Assembly (NCBI GenBank): GCA_011523785.1
Contig: WTFW01000077.1
Coordinates: 1-38,600, forward strand
Length of the DNA: 38,600 bases
Source of the DNA: Chloroflexota bacterium
GTDB lineage: Bacteria > Chloroflexota > UBA11872
Reading direction: 5' to 3'
The notes beneath the pieces are model-generated. The model made no database searches. It was not told where the DNA came from and worked only from the letters and a program-made list of their open reading frames with translations. Positions 24,922-38,600 of the stretch are shown here, piece by piece; positions within the stretch are counted from its first letter, which is position 1; each line of letters opens with the position of its first letter. Both the position numbers and the translations under genes were made by a program.

Positions 24922-24951
24922 ATGGGCTCCAGACTCGGGAGTAGAGCATGA
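24922..24951 (+). CDS. Nine-codon leader peptide overlapping the PKS start
   Basis: An ATG at 24922 follows GAGGAG (24906-24911) at ten-base spacing, the best Shine-Dalgarno in this region. The frame encodes MGSRLGSRA and ends in TGA at 24949-24951. The stop overlaps the PKS ATG at 24948-24950 in the ATGA configuration used throughout this genome for coupling. The PKS also has its own GGGAG at 24937-24941. A coupled leader is inferred; the ORF is too short for composition or conservation to test here. Confidence 0.4.
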   Translation: MGSRLGSRA

Positions 24952-27900
24952 CCGAGCGAGCCAGGAACGCTGCGTTGACTGCTGAGGACCCCGTTCCAAC
25001 AGCCAATCGGAGCCAGCCGCCTCCTCAAACTGTGGAGCCCATCGCAATCGTCGGCATGGCCTGCCGGTTCCCCGGGGCGTCAAGCGTGGCTGAATTCTGG
25101 CGACTCTTGGAGTCCGGCGAGAACGCAGTTAGCGAGGGAGACCCGGGCTCCGGCGTTGGACGGATGGGCGAACTCTTCCCGGACGATCGAATCCGAAGCG
25201 AGGCCTGCAGATTCGGGGCCTTTGTCGAGGACCTGGACCAATTCGACGCGGAGTTCTTCCGCATTTCTCCGGTCGAGGCGCAGCTGTTGGATCCGCAGCA
25301 GCGCATGATGCTGGAGACGACCTGGCTGGCGCTTGAAGACGCGGGGATCAACCCCGATCGGCTCAAGGGCAGTCGAACCGGCGTCTACACCGGGATCAGC
25401 AACGACGAGTATCGAATGCTGGTCGTGGACTCGGTTAGGCCGACCGAGGCCGCAGGTTGCCTCTACGCCCTCAGCGGCACCAACCTGAATGGCACGAGCG
25501 GCCGGGTCTCATTCGTCCTTGGTCTCATGGGTCCGGCCAAGGCGGTCGACGCCGCCTGTGCATCGTCCCTCGTATCAGTGCACGACGCCGTGTCGGACCT
25601 CCAATACGGGAAGGCCGACCTTGCCATTGCGGCCGGCGTTCAGGCGATCCTCAACGGACGCATCTACGAGCTCCGGGCAGATTCGATGATGTTGTCCCCG
25701 GACGGGCAGTGCAAAGCCTTTGACGCGTCCGCTAACGGCTACGTCCGCGGCGAAGGCTGCGGGGTCGTCGTTCTCAAGCGGCTGAGCGAGGCCGAAGCCG
25801 ACGGCGACCGGATCTGGGCAGTCATCCGCGGCTCGGCGGTGAACCACGGCGGGGCGAGCACGGGTCTAACCGTTCCGCATACGCCCGCGCTGGAACAGGT
25901 CATTGAGTCAGCGCTTACTCAAGCCGGCGTCGCAGCCTCGGACGTCGACTACCTGGAAGCGCACGGAACCGGAACGGCGGTCGGTGATCCCATCGAAATC
26001 GATGCCGTGGCGAACGTCTACGGCCGCGAACGTGCGGCCGACCATCCGCTTCTGATCGGTTCCGTGAAGACCAACATCGGACATCTCGAGTCCGCCGCAG
26101 GCGTCGCCGGGCTCATGAAGGCAGCTCTTGTTGTCAATCGCGGTGTGATCCCGAAGCACCTGCACTTCCACAATCCCAACCCGGCGCTCGACTGGGATCG
26201 CCTCCCAATCCGGATCACCTCGGAAATGTCGGACTGGCCGGACGGCTATCGAAGGCCGCGGCTGGCCGGCGTGAACTCCTTTGGCATTTCCGGGACGAAC
26301 GCCCACATCCTGGTTGAGGAGTACCCCGGGCTGAACGGCGCGCCCGACCAAGAGTCGCCGATTGCGGGCGTCCCGCAGACGGTGGCCATATCGATGCCCA
26401 GTCAAGCGCGGCCCGAGGAGCCTCCCGGTCAGCGACGGGATCGCTTCCTGCCACTTTCGGGCAAGTCCGATAAAGCTCTCCGCGCACTTGCGCAGCGCTA
26501 CCTGACGTGGCTCGACGAACGGTCCGCGACACTCGTAACCGAGGGAGACGCGTCGGGTCCGCTTCTGTCGGACATGTCCTGGACCGCCGGCGTGGGAAGG
26601 AGTCACTTCGACCATCGGTCCGGCGTAGTGTTCAGCGACGCCGGGTCGTTGCGAGAGCGGCTTCGATCCGTGGCCGAGGCCGAGGCAGTCGAACAGCTTC
26701 AGACGGTGACCAGGGTGGCCTTCGCATACACCGGACAGGGCAGCCAGTGGGTTGGCATGGGCAAAACCCTGTACGAGACCGAGCCCGTCGTGCGGGCCGT
26801 GCTGGACCGCTGCGAGGACGAATTCCGCAAAGAGCGCGGGGCCTCGCTGCTGGACGTGATGTTCGGTAGCCCCGGGACCACGGGCGAACTGGGCGACACC
26901 GCCTGGGAGCAACCCGCCCTCTATGCGCTGGAGTGCGCCCTCACTGCCCTTTGGTCCAGCGTGGGGATCGAACCCGACGTCGTCATGGGACACAGCGTCG
27001 GCGAGCTGGCTGCGGCACAGGCGGCGGGCGTCTTCAGCCTCGAAGACGGGATGCGGTTCGCAGCAGCTCGAGGCGCCCTGCTCTCGGCAACGCCACACGG
27101 CGCCATGGCCGCGGTCTTCGCGCCTCCGGCACTCGTCGCGTCAGCGGTTGCGGAGACAAACACGGCATCCGATGGCGTCGGTTTGAGCGTTTCGGCCGAC
27201 AACGGCGCCCACCAGGTGGTGAGCGGCACGGCTGCGGACATCGAGACCATCTCGAAGCGTTTTGAAGCAGAGGGCATCCGGATTCGACGGCTGAATACAA
27301 CCCGTGCATTTCATAGCGCCCTTGTCGAACCAGCCCTCGTCACGCTGGAAGCTTCCCTTCGCGGTGTGGCATTTGAGCCGCCCGCCGTGCCCCTCGTCAG
27401 TAATTTGACCGGCCAGAAGGTGGAGCCTGGCACCACGCTTGATGGCTCCTATTGGCGGCGCCACGCTCGACAGCCTGTGGCGTTCGCGGGTGGCGTCAGA
27501 ACGCTGGCGGACCTGGGCGTTGACCTGGTAATCGAGATTGGTCCGCACGCGGTGCTTGGGCCCATGACTACGCTGGCCTGGCCCGATCCAGCGTCTGGGC
27601 GGGACACGCCCGAGGCCCCAGGCGTGCTCGCCAGCCTGCGGCAACCGCCACGCGATGCGTCGACTCCGGAAGCCGAGAGCAGCTTCGTTGACGCCGTCGC
27701 GGAAGCCTATGAGCTGGGGTTGGAAGTTTCATTCGAAGGACTCTTTGCTGGCGAGACTCGTCGTCGGATCTCGCTTCCGAGCTATCCATTCCAACGCCGC
27801 CGCCACTGGCTCGAGCCGTCCAGGCACCGGGGGCCAACCGCCGGTCACCCCTTGCTGGGCGTCCGCCACGAGTCCGCTCGCGGAGAAGTTACGTTCGAAA

Positions 27901-30900
27901 CGGAAGTGATCCCGTCGGATCCCGAGTGGCTGAACGACCATCGAGTGTTCAATCGCCTCGTGGCTCCCGGCGCCCTCTACGCGGCCATGGCGGCCGCGGC
28001 CTCGCAGGCCGAAGGCAGCGGCGCGCTGGTCGTGGAAGACATGCAACTGCACAGCGCCATGGTCTTTTCCGACCAGGGTTCTCAGGATGAACCAGGCGAT
28101 GAAGGCCGCAGGATGCAGGTCGTGCTCGACCCTGCCGAGCAAGCGTCGTCGCGTGGCGTCCAGATCTACAGCCAGGGCAGCGACGAAGAGTGGACGCTGC
28201 ACGTGGAGGCTCGCGTGCCAGCAGTTGCCCCGTTGCCCGAAGGCGGCGATCGAGTTGATCTCGAAGAGCTGAAGGGCCGCCTTTCGCCCGCCGATGTGCC
28301 TGCCTACTACCAGGCCAAGACAAGCACCGGGATAGACTTGGGTCCGTTCTTCCGCACTCTGGGGAACGCTTGGTCCGGTCCGGGCGAGGCCCTGGCTGAA
28401 GTCCGCCTGCCCGATTCCGTTGGCCGTAACGACCTGGACGTTCACCCACTCGTGCTCGACGGCTGCTTCCAGGTCGTGGGCCTGGCTCGCAACATGTCCG
28501 GCGCTCCCGGCGAGGCAACCTACCTGCCGTTTGGCTGGGAGCGGCTGTGGCTGACGCGACGTCTGCCAGATCGAGTCGTCTGCCACGTAGTCATGGATGA
28601 GGCCTCGCAGGAGTCAGAGTCACCTGAGCCACCGGAAGTCCTGAGCGGCGAACTCCGCATCTACGATCCCAACGGCGTGTTCCTCGGTGGCCTGACCGGA
28701 TACACGGTCAAGCGGGCCACCCGGGCGGCGCTCCTGTCGGCGGTCGAGGGCATTGACGACCTGCTATATGAAGTGGCGTGGCGCGAATGCGAACTGCCGT
28801 CCGGGATCGAGTCAGCGGACTTTTTCCCAGGTCCTACCGAAATAGCCGCCAGGTCGCAGCTATTCACCGGCTATCTGACCGACGCGGGAGTCGATCCTCA
28901 GGGCCGAAACGCGCTGCTGGCCGACCTGGAGCGGTGGTCGCGCTCACGCGCGCTGGCCACGTTGGAGGATCTTGGGTGGCAGCGGATCGTCGGCGAAACC
29001 GTGGATCCCGAAGCCCTGCGGTCACAGCTCAACGTTCTTCCAGAGCACCGACGCGTCTTCCGCCGCATGTTCGAAATGCTCGCCAGGTCAGGCGTGGTGG
29101 AGGAGACGGATAGCGGCTTCACGGTGATCGTGGGACCGGACGATCCGCTGCCGGACCGCATGCCGGGCGATCTCGAAGAGTTTGCCGACCGGATGCTGGA
29201 CCTCTACCCGGATGGCCAGACCGAGATCGGATTGTTCCGTCGGTCTGGCCGGGCGCTGGCCGAGGTCCTCCGTGGCCAGGCCGATCCGCTGACGCTGCTA
29301 TTCAGCAGCGGCGAACCAACGGCGGCCGATCTTTACTTGAAGGCCCCCGTTGCCCGCGCCGCCAACCGAATGCTGGCCGACGCGGTCCAGCCCCTCGTCG
29401 CCGCCTTGCCCGACGATCGACGACTTCGAGTGATTGAAGTCGGGGCCGGTACGGGGTCCGCAACCGCATCCGTGCTTCCCGAGCTTCCAGATGGTCGATT
29501 CAACTACACCTACACCGACATTTCGGCGGGCTTCTTCGCCGAGGCCGAGGGGCGCTTCGGCGATGGCGACGGATGCATTGAGTACCGTCCGCTGGACATC
29601 GAACGGGATCCTATCGCCCAGGGCTTCGACCGCCACGGCTACGACCTACTCATTGCCTCCAACGTGCTTCACGCCACGCGCTACCTGGAGGAGACACTTG
29701 GGCATTGCCGAGATCTACTTGCGCCGTCCGGGCAACTGATCGCGCTCGAGAACCTCAGCGGCGTCGGCTGGATGGACCTGACATTCGGCCAGCTGGACGG
29801 CTGGTGGCGATTCGCCGACGACTACCGCCCGCACCACGCCCTGGCCGGTCCCCCGGTCTGGCGGCAGGCGCTCGGCGATTCGGGTTTTGAGGAAGTTGAA
29901 GTCCTCGGAGTCGACGAGTCTGACTCGACCCAGACCCTGGACAAAGGCGTCATCGTGGCGCGGGGACCGGCGCAGGTCGCGGAGCCTGCGGGCGTCTGGG
30001 TGCTTACAGCCGACAGATGTGGCGTGGCGGAGGAACTCGCAGCGGAGTTGACCGCGCGCAATCAGACGGTGGTGTTGGCAAACGCCGAATCGTCGGCCGC
30101 CGGCAAGCCTGCGACAGAAAGCCCCGCGATTCTTCGACCCGCGCTGGACACCGAGAGTCGCGACTCGTGGCAATCGCTGATCGAGGCACTGCCTCGGGAT
30201 ATCCCCTTCAACGGGGTCGTACACCTACAAGCTCTTGACGGCCACGGCCCTCAGGCAACCACCGTGGAAATAGGAGCGGACGTTCGCCACGCCGGCGCCA
30301 GCGCCCTGGCCCTGGTGCAGGGCGTGGCCGACGCTGACGTCCTTCCCGCCAACGGCCTTTGGTTCGTAACCAGTGGAGCGCAGATTCTGGAGCGGGAGCG
30401 CATCGGAGAGATCTCCGGCGCCGTCCTTTGGGGACTGGGCAAGGTCGTCGCCCTTGAGGCCCCCCAGCTGCAGCCGCGAATGATCGACCTGGAACCCAAT
30501 GCTCCACCCCTGCTGGCTGACCTCGTGAACGAGCTGATGTATCCCGACCAGGAAAACCACATTGCCTACCGCTCAGGGCGCCGCCTTGGAGCACGCTTGG
30601 TACGGCCTGAGGCCGCGGCCCGGCGGCTAACGCTGCCGGACGACTCATCGTGGGTCCTCGCACCGGACCGCAGCGGCATCTTCGACCAGCCGGAGATCAA
30701 GCAACTTCCTGGACGCACCCTTGAGTCGAAGGAAGTTCGCATCTCCGTCCAGGCAGCCGGCCTCAACTTCTGGGACGTGTTCCGATCGCTCGGGTTCATC
30801 GAGGAGGGCGATCTCGGCCGCGAAATGTGCGGCCACGTCGTCGATGTCGGCTCAGATGTCTCCTCCGTCACCGTAGGCGAACGCGTGGTTGGACTTGGCT

Positions 30901-33900
30901 TTGGAGCCTTCGGCCGGGAAATGGTCACCCGCGAGGAATTGGTGGCGCCGGCTCCCGCGGGGCTGTCGGTCTCGGATTTGGCCACGATTCCGAGCGCGTT
31001 CGTCTCGGCGGCCCTCTCCTACGCGTACTCAGGGCTGGAAGCCGGCGAGCGAGTACTGATTCACGCTGGCGCCGGCGGGGTCGGTCTGGCGGCCATTCAG
31101 TTGGCTCAAGCGGCAGGGGCGGAGGTGTATGCCACGGCCAGCGCTCCCAAGCAGGCACTTCTGCGCTCGCTCGGCGTCGAGCACGTATTCGATAGCCGCC
31201 AAACCAGCTTTGGCCAGGAAATCCTCGAAGCCACCGGCGGCAAAGGTGTACACGTGGTGCTGAACAGCCTGACCAGCGAGGGCTTCATCGAGGCCAGCCT
31301 GTCGTGCCTGGCCCATGGTGGACGATTCGTCGAACTGGCAAGGCGCGACATCCTGACCGAGGACGAGATGGCAGCCGTGCGTCCGGATGTCGCCTACGAC
31401 ATTCTGGAACTGGACGTCCTGAAAAAAACCGATCCGGCCTGGGTCGGCGAGGTCCTGCGCGAGGTGATGGCCCAGCTCTCGGCCGGAGTCCTCAAGCCCA
31501 TAATCCATAGTCGATGGCCCCTGGCCGAGGCCGGAGCCGCCTTGGACTTCATGCGGTCGGCTCGGCACGTGGGCAAGATCGTGTTGACGGCGCCGCCAAT
31601 TGTGAGCGGACGCCTTCGGCAGGATCGCACCTACCTGGTGACCGGCGGACTCGGCGGCATCGGATGTGCTGTGGCCGGCTGGCTGGCTGATCACGGCGCC
31701 GGCGCCATCGTGCTGAACGGCCGACGCGACCCGGATACTGAGGCTCAGGCATCCATTGATGCGTTGCGCCGGCGCGGAGTCCGGGTTGAAGTTGAGCTCG
31801 CGGATGCCACCGACTCCGCGGCGATCGATCGGATGTTGGAGCGAATCGACGCGACGCTGCCACCGCTCGGTGGCGTCATCCACAGCGTCGGCGTGCTATC
31901 GGACGCCGCGCTCACCAATCAGACCTGGGCAAGCTTCGAGCAGGTGCTCTGGCCCAAGATCCTGGGGGCATGGCACCTGCACCGTGCGACGCAGAACCGC
32001 GACCTGGATCTCTTCATCCTCTTTTCCAGCCGCGTCGGCGTCATGGGCAATCCCGGCCAGGCCAACCACGCCGCCGCCAATGCCTTTCTCGATCAGCTTG
32101 CCGGGCACCGGCGTGCCCTAGGACTCCCAGGCCAGGCCATTGCCTGGGGCGCCTGGTCGGAGATCGGTGAAGCCGCCGAACAGCGGGAGCGAATCGAGCG
32201 GCGCCGGGCGGCACTCGGGGGCCGCTGGTTCACCCCACAGCAAGGCATCAGGGCCCTTGAACGGCTGGTGCGCCAGGACGCCACGGCGTCCGTCGTAATG
32301 TCCATGGACTGGTCGGTCTTCGAAGAAGCCGTCGAAGAACGTCCGGCCTTCCTCGAAGATCTGCTGTCGTCCGCCGCCGACGACGGCACCGATGCCGCGG
32401 CCGCGTCCGAAGACCTGCTGACCCGGTTGCGGAGCGCACCTGCGGCCGAGCACCAGGAGGTGCTGGCGTCCTTTCTACAGCAGGAGGTGCAGGCCGTCCT
32501 GCGTCTATCCACGGCACCGGCGCCCACGGTCGGATTCTTCGATCTCGGGATGGACTCATTGATGGCGGTTGAGCTTCGCAATCGCCTCAACCGTGCGTTC
32601 GCCGGCGAGTACACCGCGTCCAACACGATGGTCTTCGACTATCCGGACATCGAGACCCTTGCCGAACACCTGGTCGGCGAACTCGGCCAGGCGGAGGAGT
32701 CCCCGGCGCTGCCAGCGGTGGTCGCCCCGGAGCCCCAAGCCCAGGCCGCACAGGCGGACGACGGCATTGCAATAATCGGCATGGGCTGTCGCTTCCCGGG
32801 TGCGGATGACCCGTTGGCCTTCTGGCGACAGCTGGAAGCTGGCGTCGACTCGGTCAGGGAGGGACGCCAGGAAACAGGGACCTGGTATCGAGCCTTTGGC
32901 GACCCTGCGAGCGAAGACCCCATCTTCCGGCGCGGCGCCTTTCTCGACGACATCGAGCAATTCGACTCGAGGTTTTTCCGAATCGCGCCGATTGAAGCGC
33001 GACTGATGGATCCACGCCAGCGCTTGCTGCTGGAAACGACCTGGCACGCCCTTGAGGATGCCGGCATTGATCCCGACGGGCTGCGGGGAAGCAAAACAGG
33101 TGTCTACATCGGCGTTGGCGGCAACGAGTACAGAGACTTGATCCTCGCCAGCGGTGAAGAGGACAGTTTCGTCGGCACCGCCGGCAGCATGACCGTTGGG
33201 CGCGTGTCCTATGTGCTCGGCCTGGAGGGACCGGCCATGCCGCTGGACATGGTGTGCGCGTCGTCGCTGGTCGCAGTACACCAGGCCATCGCGGGTTTGC
33301 AACGGGGCGAAGCCGATATGGCACTGGTTGGCGGGGTCAATGTTCCTTTGTCCCGTGGAATCACGCGCTTCCTGGACGATCTCGGCATGTTGTCGGAGAG
33401 TGGCTGTTCCCGAACCTTCGACGCCTCGGCCGACGGCTTTGTGCGCGGCGACGGCTGCGGCATGGTCGTGCTGAAGCGCCTGCGCGACGCGGAAGCGGAC
33501 GGTGACCGGATCTGGGCTGTGCTTCGCGGCTCCGCCATCAATCAGAACGGCGCGAGCGCCGGCCTCACCGTGCCAAATGGGCCGGCCCAGGAGCAGGTGC
33601 TCAGAGACGCGCTGTCGAGGGCCCGTATCGATCCGGCCGACGTTGACTATCTTGAAGCCCACAGCGCCGGCTCGGCTCTCGGCGATCCAATCGAAGTCCA
33701 GGCTGCGGCGTCCGTCTACGGCCAGGGCCGTGACCCCGACCGGCCGCTGCTCATCGGCTCGGTGAAAGCCAACATCGGCCACCTGGAGTGGGCGGCCGGT
33801 ATCGCCAGTCTGATCAAGACCGTGCTGGCCATGCACCAGCGGATGATTCCCAGGCAGCTGCACTACAGCACCCCGAGCCCACAGCTCGACTGGGATCAGC

Positions 33901-35291
33901 TGCCCGTACGGGTGGCATCGAGCGACACGCCGTGGCCGACCGCTCCTGACCGGCCACCCGTAGCGGCCGTGAGTGCATTCGGTATGTCCGGAACGAATGC
34001 GAACGTCGTGGTTCAGGGCTACGACTCTCAGGAGGATTCGGCGGTTCGACAGGGTGATCTACGCGTTCCGGCCGGCACGTCCCGTCGGGTCGAGGTGTCG
34101 ATGCCAGAAGTCGTTGCCCGGATTCCCCAGCCAACATCACAACTTAGCGAGCGCGAGACGCGACTGTTGCCCTTGTCCGCGAAATCAGACGTCGCGCTGC
34201 GCCAACTTGCAAGGCGCTATCTGTCGTGGCTCGACGGTCAGCCTGCGGGCACCGTGGCTCACGCCGACCTCGCGGACTTGGCATGGACGGCGAGCGTGGG
34301 GCGCAGCCACTTTGACTTCCGGGCGGGCCTGGCCTTTGGCGACACCGACTCCATGCGCGAAGGGCTGCGCAAGCTGGCTCAGTCCACGGTGGAACCCGTA
34401 CCTCAGTCGCCCCCCAGAGTGGCCTTCGTGTATTCCGGACATGGCAGCCAGTGGCTTGGTATGGGCGAAGATGTCTACCGGACCGAGCCCGTGGCACGGG
34501 CGGTACTTGATCACTGCGACGCGGTCCTGCGCGATGAGCGCGGCGCTTCCTTGCTGGACATCATGTTTGGTCGGGAAACCGCCGCCAGCAGCCTGGACGA
34601 CCCGAGCTGGGCTCAGCCGGCAGTCTATGCGCTCGAGTGCGCGCTGACAGCGCTATGGGCAAGCATTGGAATCCGCCCAACGGCGGTCGCTGGCGAGGGT
34701 GTGGGCGAGGTCGCCGCTGCCCAGGCGGCAGGAGTCATCAGCCTGGAAGACGGCCTCCGCTTTGCGTCGGCCCGAGGCGCGCTATTGGCGGCGCTTCCTG
34801 GTGCGGGACTCGCCCTGGAAGGCAGCCTTGAAGCCGCCCTGCGCGATGTTGCGATCGTCTCACCCACGCTGAACTTGGTCAGCAGCGTGACCGGACGTGT
34901 CGTTGCATCGGATCAGGCGCTTGATGCCACCTACTGGCATCGGCAGATTCGCGAGCCGGTTGACTTCGCGCGCTGCGTTCAGACGCTCGCCGCCCTCGCC
35001 AGCGCGGTCGTCGTGGAGATTGGTCCGGATGTCGCGCTCAAACCGCTGGTGATCGAGTGCTGGCCTGACACATCCACAGCCGCCGAGCCGGTCCGCGCTC
35101 CCGTCGCGATATCGTCGCTGCGCAGGCCTTCCCCGAACGATGCATCGCCTGAGCTCGGATTCGTCGACGCCATTGTGGCCGCCTATCAGGCGGGACTCAC
35201 GCCCAGGTTCTCCAGCCTCTTCGCTGGCGAAGCGAGACGACGGGTCGCACTGCCCATGTACCCCTTCCAGCGCCGGCACCACTGGGTCTAG
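24948..35291 (+). CDS. Type I PKS, KS-AT-DH-cMT-(psiKR)-ER-KR-ACP-KS-AT0
   Basis: The uninterrupted 3447-residue multi-enzyme is predicted to make a reduced methyl-branched acyl chain. Approximate domains: KS1 29-460 (Cys204, His339, His379); AT1 589-880 (Ser683 in GHSVGE, His789 in RAFHS, malonyl-type); DH 965-1250 (His998, Asp1171; HxxxN replaces HxxxG); C-methyltransferase 1330-1700 (SAM loop EVGAGTG 1497-1503); a structural KR-like stretch near 1680-1850; ER 1895-2215 (GAGGVG 2041-2046); KR 2225-2410 (TGGLGGIG from 2232; the catalytic Tyr position is His2374 in [11 protein letters not shown]); ACP 2495-2580 (Ser2537 in GMDSLM); KS2 2604-3030 (Cys2770, His2905, His2945); a decayed AT2 3155-3440. 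There is no loading module, docking domain or thioesterase. It has one full reducing module, so it is probably iterative. Discrete ACP, PPTase and hydrolase genes follow. Architecture and C-methylation recall the mono-modular sponge-symbiont SupA-type PKSs; this comparison is from memory. Confidence 0.95.
32756..35288 (+). other. Second KS with degenerate AT (AT0) at the PKS C-terminus
   Basis: This part of the PKS gene repeats the first KS-linker-AT segment, down to the linker motif ([20 protein letters not shown] against [20 protein letters not shown]). KS2 keeps the Cys-His-His triad but has DMVCASSL and EAHSAGS in place of the usual DTACSSSL and EAHGTGT. In AT2 the GHSVGE motif reads GEGVGE, so the nucleophile Ser is Gly3251. 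The block from GALLAALP to [10 protein letters not shown] lacks about 67 residues present in AT1, including the RAFHS histidine. AT2 therefore cannot load an extender and is probably only structural. Confidence 0.9.
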
Positions 35292-35607
35292 GCCTCGAAG
35301 CACCAGGCGCATTGGGCTCATCATGCGCACCCCGGGAATCCGTACTGCCGGCATAGGGCATCGTCGTCGCCGAGACTTTGTCCTGCCACGGCCGCAGACC
35401 CGGCCGGGTAACTCGCTTCACGGGCCGCACCGGCTTCTGCCCGCCACCTCCTCAACTTGATGCTATTGGGACGTGCCAGGAGGCGTCGCGGCCTCGATAC
35501 GAGCGCTGCAGTCCACAGCGCTTGTTTTCTCGCAAACGACTACGCGCCCCGCTGCTACACTTGCCGATTCTCCGGCCCTACGGCCCCTGCAGGATGGAAT
35601 TGCCCTC
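35292..35607 (+). other. 316-base gap between PKS and ACP genes
   Basis: No convincing gene is seen. The frame in phase with the PKS continues past its TAG for about 43 codons, starting A-S-K-H-Q, where module 1 continues E-P-S-R-H. This hints at a remnant of the linker that once led to a DH domain. Other short frames here are Arg/Pro-rich. No strong promoter or terminator was found, so the ACP gene is probably read from the PKS transcript. Confidence 0.4.
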
Positions 35608-35853
35608 ATGGCCTCGACTGAAGACCGCCTCAGAACTCTCGTCGCCGAAAACCTTGAAGTGGACGGTCAGCCCGTGAACGTGCCGGCCGACTTGAACGTC
35701 AGCCTCACCGACGCCGGCGTTCCCTCCATGGACTTTGTTGCGTTTGCGAAGGTGATCGTACGGGAGTTCGACGTCCCGCTGACCCCGGACGAGTGCGCGG
35801 ACTTCAGCACCTTGAAGGACTTGGCCGCGTACATCGACTCGCAAGCCGCCTAG
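35608..35853 (+). CDS. Discrete acyl carrier protein with atypical motif
   Basis: The 81-residue acidic, helical protein has carrier-protein size and pattern. The phosphopantetheine site is Ser40 in DAGVPSMDFVAF, where the usual G-x-D-S-L reads G-V-P-S-M-D, with Pro in place of the conserved Asp. Helix II (DFVAFAKVIVREFDVPL) and the C-terminal helix (FSTLKDLAAYIDSQ) fit the fold. The ATG at 35608 begins the homologous part. A longer frame from 35473 adds a low-complexity leader. Lying between a PKS that ends in KS-AT0 without ACP and a PPTase, it most likely serves KS2 as partner carrier. Confidence 0.85.
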   Translation: MASTEDRLRTLVAENLEVDGQPVNVPADLNVSLTDAGVPSMDFVAFAKVIVREFDVPLTPDECADFSTLKDLAAYIDSQAA

Positions 35854-35864
35854 CCGCACAATCT

Positions 35865-35887
35865 AGCGAGAGCCTCCGACTCTCGCT
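35865..35887 (+). terminator. 8-bp hairpin between ACP and PPTase genes
   Basis: AGCGAGAG (35865-35872) pairs perfectly with CTCTCGCT (35880-35887) around a 7-base loop, twelve bases after the ACP stop. No T-run follows, so full termination is unlikely. A processing or RNA-stabilising hairpin that keeps ACP transcript levels above those of the PPTase is a reasonable alternative. Confidence 0.4.
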
Positions 35888-35922
35888 CGTGTCGGGCTAG
35901 CAAGGGAGCGCGCGCCAACACC

Positions 35923-36654
35923 ATGTGCTCCTCCGCCGTCGGGCGCTGGTGGCGGCCGTTCGGCATAGTCGGCGAGGCTACGGTTTTTCATGTTGACCTT
36001 GCGCCCCATGCCGCGCATGAGGCCAGAGCCTCGGAGTGGCTGAACGCCGAGGAACGGGTACGTTCGGATCGCTATCTGCATGCCGGATCGCGACGCCGGT
36101 TTACCCTGTGCCGCGCGGCTCTGCGAGCCGTCCTCTGCAGTCGGCTCGCGTGTAGCGGCCAGCAGCTCACGTTCGGCACGTCCAGCTATGGCAAACCGTT
36201 TGCCCGAGTCGATGAGATGCCGAATCGAATCAGTTTCAACGTCAGCCACGGCGGCAGCCACGGGTTGATCGCCGTCGCCCCGCACGGGCGCCTCGGCGTG
36301 GACATTGAGGAACGCAGCACGCGCGACGACCTCAGCAGTCTCACGGATGCCGTGTTGGGCCCGAGCGAAGAACGCGAATTCGCGTTGCTTCGCGGCTATC
36401 GAAGAACCCATTTCTTCTTCCGCATGTGGACGCTGAAGGAAGCCCTCATTAAGGCGCTCGGTGTAGGCTTTTCGCAGGATCCGGCGAAGTTCGAAGTGCC
36501 ATTGGCAGTTCGTCGAGGCGCCAAAACTGGAATGCATAGGTTTCCCAACCTTCCACAGACCGAGTGGCGCGTCGACGACCTGGGAACCGGTGACTTCGCG
36601 GCCGCCGTCGCAATTGAAGCGAGCCCGCGGCGCAGCCAGATGTCGAGTGAGTAG
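35923..36654 (+). CDS. Sfp-type 4'-phosphopantetheinyl transferase
   Basis: The 243-residue enzyme transfers phosphopantetheine from CoA to a carrier-protein Ser. The core has SYGKPFA, then FNVSHGGSHGLIAV. The Mg-binding motif is GVDIEER (Asp127, Glu129). WTLKEALIKALGVG carries the W-x-x-K-E-A signature (Trp169, Lys172, Glu173). Two-domain pseudo-dimeric length identifies the Sfp/broad-specificity class rather than the short AcpS class. It lies 69 bases after the ACP gene and is expected to activate both the discrete ACP and the ACP inside the PKS. The ATG at 35923 has an AAGGGAG upstream at a rather long distance. Confidence 0.95.
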   Translation: MCSSAVGRWWRPFGIVGEATVFHVDLAPHAAHEARASEWLNAEERVRSDRYLHAGSRRRFTLCRAALRAVLCSRLACSGQQLTFGTSSYGKPFARVDEMPNRISFNVSHGGSHGLIAVAPHGRLGVDIEERSTRDDLSSLTDAVLGPSEEREFALLRGYRRTHFFFRMWTLKEALIKALGVGFSQDPAKFEVPLAVRRGAKTGMHRFPNLPQTEWRVDDLGTGDFAAAVAIEASPRRSQMSSE

Positions 36655-36762
36655 ACGCGAACTAGACTCTCCGCGCCCATCATTGACGTTTCGTGGACCA
36701 GTCGTCATGCATTCGCGCACTTACGCTCGTTCACAGGTCTCCGGCCGAAAGAAGTCCAGGCT

Positions 36763-37674
36763 GTGACCACGAACTCGCAGCCCTTGTGGGAAATCCCCGA
36801 GCCCCTTGCAATCCGCCAGGTAAACGTCGACGACGACACCGCCGTGATCCTGCGGCGCCACGGCAATCCATCGGGCCCGCGCCTTGTCCTCAGCCACGGG
36901 AATGGCCTCGCGATCGACCTTTACTACCCGTTTTGGTCACTTCTGGCCGACGACTTCGACCTCGTCGTTTACGACCTCCGGAATCACGGCTGGAATGCCC
37001 TCAGTCCGCTCGAAGATCACAATGTTCCCACCCTCGTCCGCGACCATGACCGGATCCTCGAGGCAATTGACACGCATTTCGGGGACAAGCCTAAGACCGG
37101 CGTCTTTCATTCGGTGTCGGCGTTGACAACGCTGCTCTCGCCGGCGAAAGGTAGTGGTCTTTCAGCGCTTGTCCTGTTTGATCCTCCGCTGTGCAGACCC
37201 GGCGCCAGCTATGAGGAATTCGATGCCGCCGCCATGCGAACCGCAGCTATGACCAGGCGGCGCACCGAGCTGTTTCAGTCGGTCGACCAGTTCGCTGACC
37301 TCCTGAGCTTCGTGCCGACCTTTTACCGTTCGGTTCCCGGCACCTTCGATCTTGCCGCCCGCACGACGCTTCGAGAGCGCAAACAGCGGGACGGCTACGA
37401 ACTGCGCTGTCCGCGCGATTACGAAGCGCAGATCGTTGACTACGCCAGCGCCTTTGCCGTGCTCGTGGACTTCGACGCTTTTCGCTGCCCGATCAAGGTT
37501 GTTGGAGCCGATCCGACCTTGCCCTACTCATACCTGCCAACCTTCGATCTGAGCCACGTACTCACGGTGGACTATGACTTTCTTCCGGAGACCACCCACT
37601 TCCTGCAGCTCGAACAGCCTGAAGCCTGCGCCGAATCGGTGCGTGAGTTCCTTGACCAGCTTGGCTCTGACTGA
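36763..37674 (+). CDS. Alpha/beta hydrolase, candidate chain-release enzyme
   Basis: The 303-residue cytoplasmic protein has the alpha/beta-hydrolase fold. LVLSHGNGLAIDLYYPFW contains the oxyanion HGN loop and VYDLRNHGWNA follows strand 4. The nucleophile elbow reads GVFHSVSALT, so Ser117 is present but the GxSxG flanking glycines are Phe-His and Ser. His279 in PETTHFLQLEQPEAC is the likely catalytic base. The acid is probably Asp in the VVGADPTLP loop. It starts at GTG 36763, 108 bases after the PPTase stop, and is the last gene of the locus on this strand. As the PKS has no thioesterase, a release or editing role is inferred. An esterase for an unrelated substrate is the alternative. Confidence 0.78.
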   Translation: MTTNSQPLWEIPEPLAIRQVNVDDDTAVILRRHGNPSGPRLVLSHGNGLAIDLYYPFWSLLADDFDLVVYDLRNHGWNALSPLEDHNVPTLVRDHDRILEAIDTHFGDKPKTGVFHSVSALTTLLSPAKGSGLSALVLFDPPLCRPGASYEEFDAAAMRTAAMTRRRTELFQSVDQFADLLSFVPTFYRSVPGTFDLAARTTLRERKQRDGYELRCPRDYEAQIVDYASAFAVLVDFDAFRCPIKVVGADPTLPYSYLPTFDLSHVLTVDYDFLPETTHFLQLEQPEACAESVREFLDQLGSD

Positions 37675-37688
37675 CCCTCGCGCGCGAA

Positions 37689-38600
37689 TTACGGCAAGGC
37701 GTCGACCCTGACGGTAACGATGTCCAGGCCGTGATACTTCTGGTGTCGCACCGACGACGCGAAGTGTCGTAGCAGCCGGAACGATATCTCTTCTGCATCT
37801 GGCAGTTCATTTTGCTCGGCCAGGTATGCGAGCCGATCTGCCAGGTTCTCTTCGTCCGAAGTCGCCACAAACTCCAGCTCGACTGACCTGCCCTCCGGGC
37901 TCGCGCTAAGCACCAGGCGCGATGCTGGAGTCGTAGTCTCGTCGCCTGCTGGTTGGAGCAAGCTCGACACGGTCTCCTCGCCCGCCGAGCGCAGGCGTTC
38001 GGTCGAGGCGTCATCCCACTTCATCGATGTGGCAACGGCGTACAGGAAGGAGTCGATTCGCGGAAGGTCCGAGGTATCCAGTCGCGCTTCCAGTCGTTGA
38101 CGCTTGGGCTTCGTGAAATTGAGAAACACGGTGAGACCAATTGCGGTGGCAGCGCCGGCGGTGATTCCGTTGCCGAGCAGCAGACTCCATGGAGGACCCA
38201 CGATTCCGCCGAACACGTCGTTCTGATCGAAGCCGACGCCCATTGCAAAGCCGAGTCCGACAATGAGGGCTGTCTGAGCGTCCATGCCACCCCGCGTAAC
38301 CGTGCGAAGTCCCTCAACGAATAGCATCCCGGTTGCCAGCAGCAAGAATGCCCCCATCACCGGTTTGGGAATCGTGAGCAGCAAGCCCGCAAGCTTCGGA
38401 AATACGGCCAGCAGGATCAGAATCGCCCCCATGGCGTATCCGACACGACGCGCCGCTACGCCGGTAAGCGAGATAAGCGACACGCTGGACGACGAATAGG
38501 CGGTTGTTGGCGGCGTTCCGGCCAGTCCCGAGAGCAGCATGCCCAGACCACCCGCGTACAACGTCCCCTGGATGAGCCGAAAGTCGGTGGCCCGGGCCTG
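37689..38600 (-). CDS. NCS2-type nucleobase permease, C-terminal part, with fused soluble domain
   Basis: The minus-strand frame is open to the window end, giving the last 303 residues. The membrane part has TPPTTAYSSSSVSLISLTGV, close to the NCS2 TPxTTxxxxN-like signature, plus helices around LAVFPKLAGLLLTIPKPVMGAFLLL and GVGFDQNDVFGG, typical of uracil/xanthine permease homologues. After the last helix (ending near FLNFTKP) about 140 extra soluble residues follow (RLDTSDLPRIDSFLYAVATSM to the end). NCS2 proteins usually end soon after the last helix. The tail loosely resembles a GHKL/RsbW-like layout (LRSAGEETVSSLL, EISFRLLRHFASSV), which is a guess. The N-terminus lies outside the window. 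It converges with the hydrolase gene, fourteen bases apart. Confidence 0.75.
   Translation of the reverse strand, partial: QARATDFRLIQGTLYAGGLGMLLSGLAGTPPTTAYSSSSVSLISLTGVAARRVGYAMGAILILLAVFPKLAGLLLTIPKPVMGAFLLLATGMLFVEGLRTVTRGGMDAQTALIVGLGFAMGVGFDQNDVFGGIVGPPWSLLLGNGITAGAATAIGLTVFLNFTKPKRQRLEARLDTSDLPRIDSFLYAVATSMKWDDASTERLRSAGEETVSSLLQPAGDETTTPASRLVLSASPEGRSVELEFVATSDEENLADRLAYLAEQNELPDAEEISFRLLRHFASSVRHQKYHGLDIVTVRVDALP

Follow-up and report, generated by a model that had tools for sequence, protein, structure and literature searches.

The stand-alone acyl carrier protein (ACP) gene at positions 35608-35853 (forward strand, 81 aa) of the 38,600-nucleotide Chloroflexota contig stretch analyzed here (the window) has the site GVPSMD around its attachment serine, Ser40, and lies between the genes for a type I polyketide synthase (PKS) and a phosphopantetheinyl transferase (PPTase). 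It raises the question of what a second carrier does beside a PKS that has its own ACP domain, and whether the PPTase is adapted to the proline that precedes the serine. As far as its sequence tells, the 81-aa protein is a real acyl carrier. The PF00550 (PP-binding) profile matches it with 40.7 bits against a gathering cut-off of 20.8. In an alignment of 47 stand-alone ACPs (the window protein and 46 of 62 family members, with near-copies and gappy sequences left out), the attachment serine is invariant (47/47), and 46 of the 47 proteins match PF00550 at E<=0.01. Both the GVPSMD site and the PPTase gene 69 bases downstream, first pointed out from the bare sequence, are borne out by the translation and the open reading frames. 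Proline stands in the window where DSL-type sites have Asp, directly before the attachment serine. An artefact of frame or start was ruled out as the origin of this site, since the M-A-S-T type start and the frame are common to most relatives.

The predicted structure of the ACP (mean pLDDT 83.6) contains the usual set of helices. Ser40 is the first residue of helix II in this model, so that Pro39 would sit just before the helix. Asp, Ser, Thr and Asn are good helix caps, and Pro fits a helix start without capping. Helix-capping ability may possibly explain why the family tolerates Asp, Ser, Thr or Asn before Ser40. A fold search with the model returned generic carrier proteins at E-values of 0.0057 or above. 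A scan of positions 35200-37750 found neither a promoter nor a terminator (shuffle means 0.4 and 2.0).

The sequence-only reading took GxDSL as the expected carrier site, which proved too strict for this phylum, where many carriers have a residue other than Asp before the serine. Among 30 carriers from other Chloroflexota genomes, this residue is Asp in 15, His in 13 and Asn in two, with no Pro or Ser; these are the best-scoring carriers with loci given, and the sample is hence rich in long NRPS and PKS proteins. A further comparison is provided by Dictyobacter vulcani, a Chloroflexota species. In the available portion of PMC12391972, DSL accounts for only 6.3% of its 79 carriers, DSI (44.3%) and HSL (34.1%) dominate, and one PPTase was identified in the genome. 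The prevalence of DSI and HSL in D. vulcani, together with His and Asn in the phylum census, indicates that Asp is not obligatory for carriers. Asp-Ser-Leu is thus not required there beside a sole identified PPTase; however, the motifs named in that portion of PMC12391972 include neither Pro nor Ser before the attachment serine, unlike those of the ACP family considered here. Residues other than Asp are thus common at this position, but Pro or Ser is unusual. According to the same text, Thr after the attachment serine can block Sfp, a warning that would concern loci L073 and L075.

The stand-alone ACP is present in 26 of 101 genomes (its own included, E<=1e-6), and this recurrence is not due to chance. 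Altogether there are 27 copies, 16 with GVPSMD and 11 with GVSS(M/L)(D/E); 23 of them were aligned, as the remaining four end earlier than the query. Scanning of genome contigs gave 65 loci, of which 62 were assigned to the family after L121-L123 (ADSLD sites, 31-34% identity) had been dropped as looking like ordinary AcpP. The 62-locus set and the relatives from the 101 genomes come largely from the same MAGs and are not independent. The residue before the serine in the 62 members is Ser in 38, Pro in 22, Asn in one, Thr in one and Asp in none, in a scan where one of three search stretches, with P or S before SM, favors Pro and Ser members and the other two leave this residue untouched. The Ser count includes L120 (GVSSVES), which was missed by the motif reader and counted by eye, with a looser reader in agreement.

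The embedded ACP domain of the PKS (32472-32672, forward strand) has the site GMDSLM in the window and in all 43 readable loci. Given the complete absence of Asp from the stand-alone proteins, the trait is therefore a loss of Asp across their whole family, and the proline in the window is one version of this Asp-free habit. The proposal that the two ACPs could be told apart thus holds for their sites, which differ consistently, and the motif split between the two carriers is family-wide. Through the loss of Asp, the stand-alone ACP differs both from the embedded domain and from the AcpP of the same genome (ADSLD); the meaning of this separation is something we infer.

Codons for Pro and Ser before the attachment serine (CCN and TCN) are one transition apart. 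In a tree built from 43 PKS fragments (ER-KR-ACP, 10 of 40 inner branches unresolved), at least six changes between Pro and non-Pro are required, a count that separate exchange of ACP and PKS would lower. We propose that the choice between Pro and Ser is close to neutral.

The PPTase gene (35923-36654, forward strand) encodes 243 aa, near the approximately 240 expected of the Sfp type, with the G-(V/I)-D-x-E and WxxKEA motifs intact as GVDIEE and WTLKEALIKA. These catalytic motifs are kept across an alignment of 27 (the window protein and 26 of 42 references, without near-copies and gappy sequences). The best solved match of its profile is Sfp of B. subtilis (PDB 1qr0, 4mrt), which differs in that the local enzyme is encoded within the locus. 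HetI is the best NCBIfam model, far under its cut-off (104 of 370 bits). Three carriers were found in the window genome, namely AcpP (contig C2), the embedded ACP domain and the stand-alone ACP, and two PPTases, the local Sfp-like one and AcpS; the genome is 91% complete, so that a further PPTase could be missing. With only these two found, the embedded GMDSLM domain is presumably a further substrate of the local PPTase, and the simplest reading is a single general enzyme of the Sfp type that serves both carriers. By analogy, this agrees with the embedded ACP of the swf cluster, which, according to the accessible text of PMC3908369, was converted to the holo form by the PPTase Svp and remained apo in E. 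coli lacking this enzyme.

The suggestion that the PPTase is adapted to the proline, which would make this residue a lock-and-key feature of the stand-alone ACP, draws on the adjoining genes and on the frequency of a PPTase homologue in locus DNA, found at 19 of the 22 Pro-type loci compared with 23 of the 38 loci of Ser type, a mild excess in which near-identical Chloroflexota copies weigh. However, the Ser-type ACPs are accompanied by the same PPTase family, and two Pro-type loci (L111 and L112) have no PPTase within 10 kb on either side, with PF01648 proteins elsewhere in their genomes. The repeated changes between Pro and non-Pro, and the need of the embedded domain for a PPTase in a genome that shows only the local one and AcpS, also speak against a tuned enzyme. 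Adaptation to the proline is thus unsupported and very unlikely, and the odd proline, taken alone, does not point to a special activating enzyme. Altogether, 19 of the 62 loci have no PPTase in the locus DNA; a genome-wide search that covered 10 of these found a PF01648 protein elsewhere in all ten genomes.

The PKS (24948-35291, forward strand, 3447 aa) has the domain order KS-AT-DH-MT-ER-KR-ACP-KS-AT0. Its second, terminal ketosynthase (KS2; 32757-33977, forward strand) has the Cys and both His, and the terminal AT-like domain, AT0 (34350-35288, forward strand), reads GEGVGE in place of GHSxGE, the boundaries of both domains being approximate. By eye, nothing in AT0 corresponds to the AFHS stretch of the first AT. 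The Cys and both His of KS2 are retained in each of the 42 loci in which this domain was placed; in one of these, L118, the last His is readable only from the other KS. The active-site serine of AT0 is absent from each of the 37 loci readable among 43; its position is occupied by Gly (31), Asp (3), Asn (2) or Lys (1), with one or two of these aligning poorly. The KS motif table gives KS2 in its KS1 column for rows with a truncated KS1, and AT1 in its AT0 column for some rows; the AT0 count was hence taken from a separate reading. AT0 is kept in the PKS despite this loss throughout the readable loci. Such retention without the serine suggests a structural or docking role.

The PKS and PPTase belong to a recurrent gene set that comprises PKS, ACP, PPTase, an alpha/beta hydrolase and an opposed permease. 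In 23 of the 26 relative loci, the PKS, or the contig's part of it, immediately precedes the ACP in the same orientation; the hydrolase occurs in 24 of these loci and the PPTase, downstream, in 23. The locus DNA of the 62 family members contains the hydrolase in 55, PKS domains in 46, the PPTase in 43 and the permease in 35 cases; for the 46 loci that extend 9 kb or more upstream and 3 kb or more downstream, the numbers are 43 for the hydrolase, 38 for the PKS and 32 for the PPTase. No hydrolase was seen in seven of the 62 loci, of which three are at contig ends. The order of the genes varies: a convergent PKS, with the hydrolase beyond the permease, is found in several loci of Gemmatimonadota and Latescibacterota.

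PKS test domains are lacking in the DNA of 16 of the 62 loci. Twelve of the corresponding genomes were searched for the PKS MT-ER region, and 11 have it elsewhere (the whole search covered 14 genomes and gave a hit in 13; for two of these genomes the locus itself already contained the PKS); no PKS was found by this search in the genome of L074. The other four loci carry an AT0 piece at the locus edge (L079, L084 and L089) or a KS-like piece (L115). Occurrence mainly outside PKS loci, named in the sequence-only reading as the outcome that would speak against its proposal, is thus not what the family displays. The counts of PKS, hydrolase and PPTase, together with the PKSs found elsewhere in the genome, indicate that the ACP travels with the system and most often with the hydrolase.

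Some genomes carry more than one copy of the ACP. L089, from an Acidobacteria MAG, seemingly has two tandem stand-alone ACPs of this family, at 0 and +536 relative to the ACP, before the hydrolase. Genome G019 has two copies (L055 on contig C2 and L049 on C10), one divergent from the PKS and the other with the hydrolase only, and SAR202 bin90 has one copy with the PKS and the other with the PPTase and hydrolase (L082, L093). At the other end, the stand-alone ACP is absent from two of 12 same-genus genomes (G002 and G003), which suggests that the system is an accessory one in this genus. Only one carrier protein was found in G002, a single-contig genome.

The hydrolase (36763-37674, forward strand) has the conserved H-S of FHSVSA and a late H in TTHFLQ, and is a possible thioesterase. 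Ser117 and His279 are invariant among 37 aligned proteins (the window protein and 36 of 54 references, near-copies and gappy ones being left out). A fold search with its model, which has low confidence at 256-278, placed curacin thioesterase at ranks 2-4 and 6, and the fold match is generic, with TM about 0.6 and similar scores for esterases, dehalogenases and lactonases. The gene adjoining the set encodes the C-terminal part of a xanthine/uracil-type permease (Xan_ur_permease family; 37689-38600, reverse strand), which runs off the window end and is convergent with the other genes.

By analogy, the cluster is probably of the known sup type. The sup cluster (SupA, sponge symbiont ubiquitous PKS) was reportedly described by Fieseler et al. 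in 2007. Sup is a small type I PKS, widespread in sponges and proposed to make mid-chain or methyl-branched fatty acids, in the portions of PMC4245539 and PMC9864124 at hand. SupE is listed as a permease in Table 1 of PMC3908369, and a permease closes the gene set here, a likeness of description, not of sequence. The five genes here would fit the sup letters A to E. In the available parts of these papers, Poribacteria are given as the source of Sup PKSs by PMC4210886 and PMC12795557, an assignment doubted in PMC4245539. The swf cluster, like apparently the set studied here, has a sponge-symbiont type I PKS; however, SwfA (KS-AT-DH-ER-KR-ACP, about 2350 aa, HATGT), as described in the accessible text of PMC3908369, is without the methyltransferase and KS-AT0 that are both present in our PKS. 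Membership in swf was ruled out by these two features and by DPQQR/HGTGT in KS1 versus DPQ(I/V)R/HATGT. No reductase-sulphotransferase or radical SAM gene of the swf kind occurs among the named window neighbors. An Asp-free stand-alone ACP in such clusters is not described among the literature matches listed, closed papers aside, and the sup paper may well already describe the gene.

The titles of the family MAGs name Chloroflexota, Gemmatimonadota, Latescibacterota, Dadabacteria, Acidobacteria, Spirochaetaceae, Alpha- and Gammaproteobacteria, Acidimicrobiia and one unplaced bacterium, eight phyla in all. Mapping of eight phylum labels on the 43-row PKS tree requires 10 changes, the least possible number being 7, compared with a mean of 14.7 for shuffled labels, with more than 10 changes in every one of 200 shuffles; the labels thus mostly follow phylum. 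All five groups listed on the tree require more than one change, and the mixed branches may reflect transfer, paralogues or misbinned contigs. The MAG prefixes RHO, COS, IRC and APA fit the sponge hosts of a demosponge MAG study, according to the available portion of PMC8163846. The carrier bacteria are apparently sponge-associated, by a link from prefix to host that we infer for these four batches.

What, then, would the stand-alone ACP do? Gene neighborhood cannot reveal which enzyme uses it, and a dedicated link is in part contradicted by the L074 genome, where the search found no PKS, and by the 19 loci whose DNA contains no PPTase. The seven loci in which no hydrolase was seen and the 16 in which the PKS does not adjoin the ACP also count against the reading that follows. 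We hold with about even confidence that it acts in trans as the second carrier of a two-carrier, probably sup-type, methyl-branching lipid or polyketide synthase. The first module (KS-AT-DH-MT-ER-KR-ACP) would work, probably iteratively, on its own embedded ACP, and the terminal KS-AT0, with its intact KS site and no AT serine, would then take the chain. As there is no ACP in cis after KS-AT0, the separate ACP would be its natural partner. KS2 would use the stand-alone ACP, as acceptor or as carrier of an extender, either to add one last unit or to move the chain off the synthase, and the nearby hydrolase would release it, presumably from the stand-alone ACP. The single Sfp-type PPTase would phosphopantetheinylate and so activate both carriers.

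A different arrangement, in which the ACP supplies the PKS with a starter or extender unit and KS-AT0 serves chiefly as a platform for docking, would account for the retention of AT0 without its serine in all readable loci, as expected of a docking surface. It seems rather unlikely, since the KS2 active site is fully kept and no adenylation or ligase gene occurs among the named window neighbors. Far more improbable is that the protein is a vestigial or general fatty-acid carrier beside the PKS by chance, even though most of its solved sequence relatives, matched at weak E-values, bear the name acyl carrier protein: the same genome has a separate AcpP, the association of the ACP with the PKS set extends over MAGs from several phyla, and its attachment serine is invariant.

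If the stand-alone ACP is indeed the second carrier in trans, the two carriers could form a relay, a tentative extension that we consider possible but short of probable. An Asp-type carrier inside the megasynthase would be used for extension and an Asp-free one only for KS-AT0 and the hydrolase, so that carrier identity would sort the finished chain, in a manner common to the apparently sponge-living MAGs of eight phyla. The spread over eight phyla bears on which organisms carry sup-type PKSs. In the accessible portions of the sources, these PKSs dominate sponge KS amplicon surveys (PMC4245539), and their product is only proposed (PMC4245539, PMC9864124). If the PKS needs a second carrier and an Sfp-type PPTase, this would be a concrete reason why the PKS, expressed by itself, could fail, and the small ACP, examined by mass spectrometry, would offer a direct handle on the product of the synthase.
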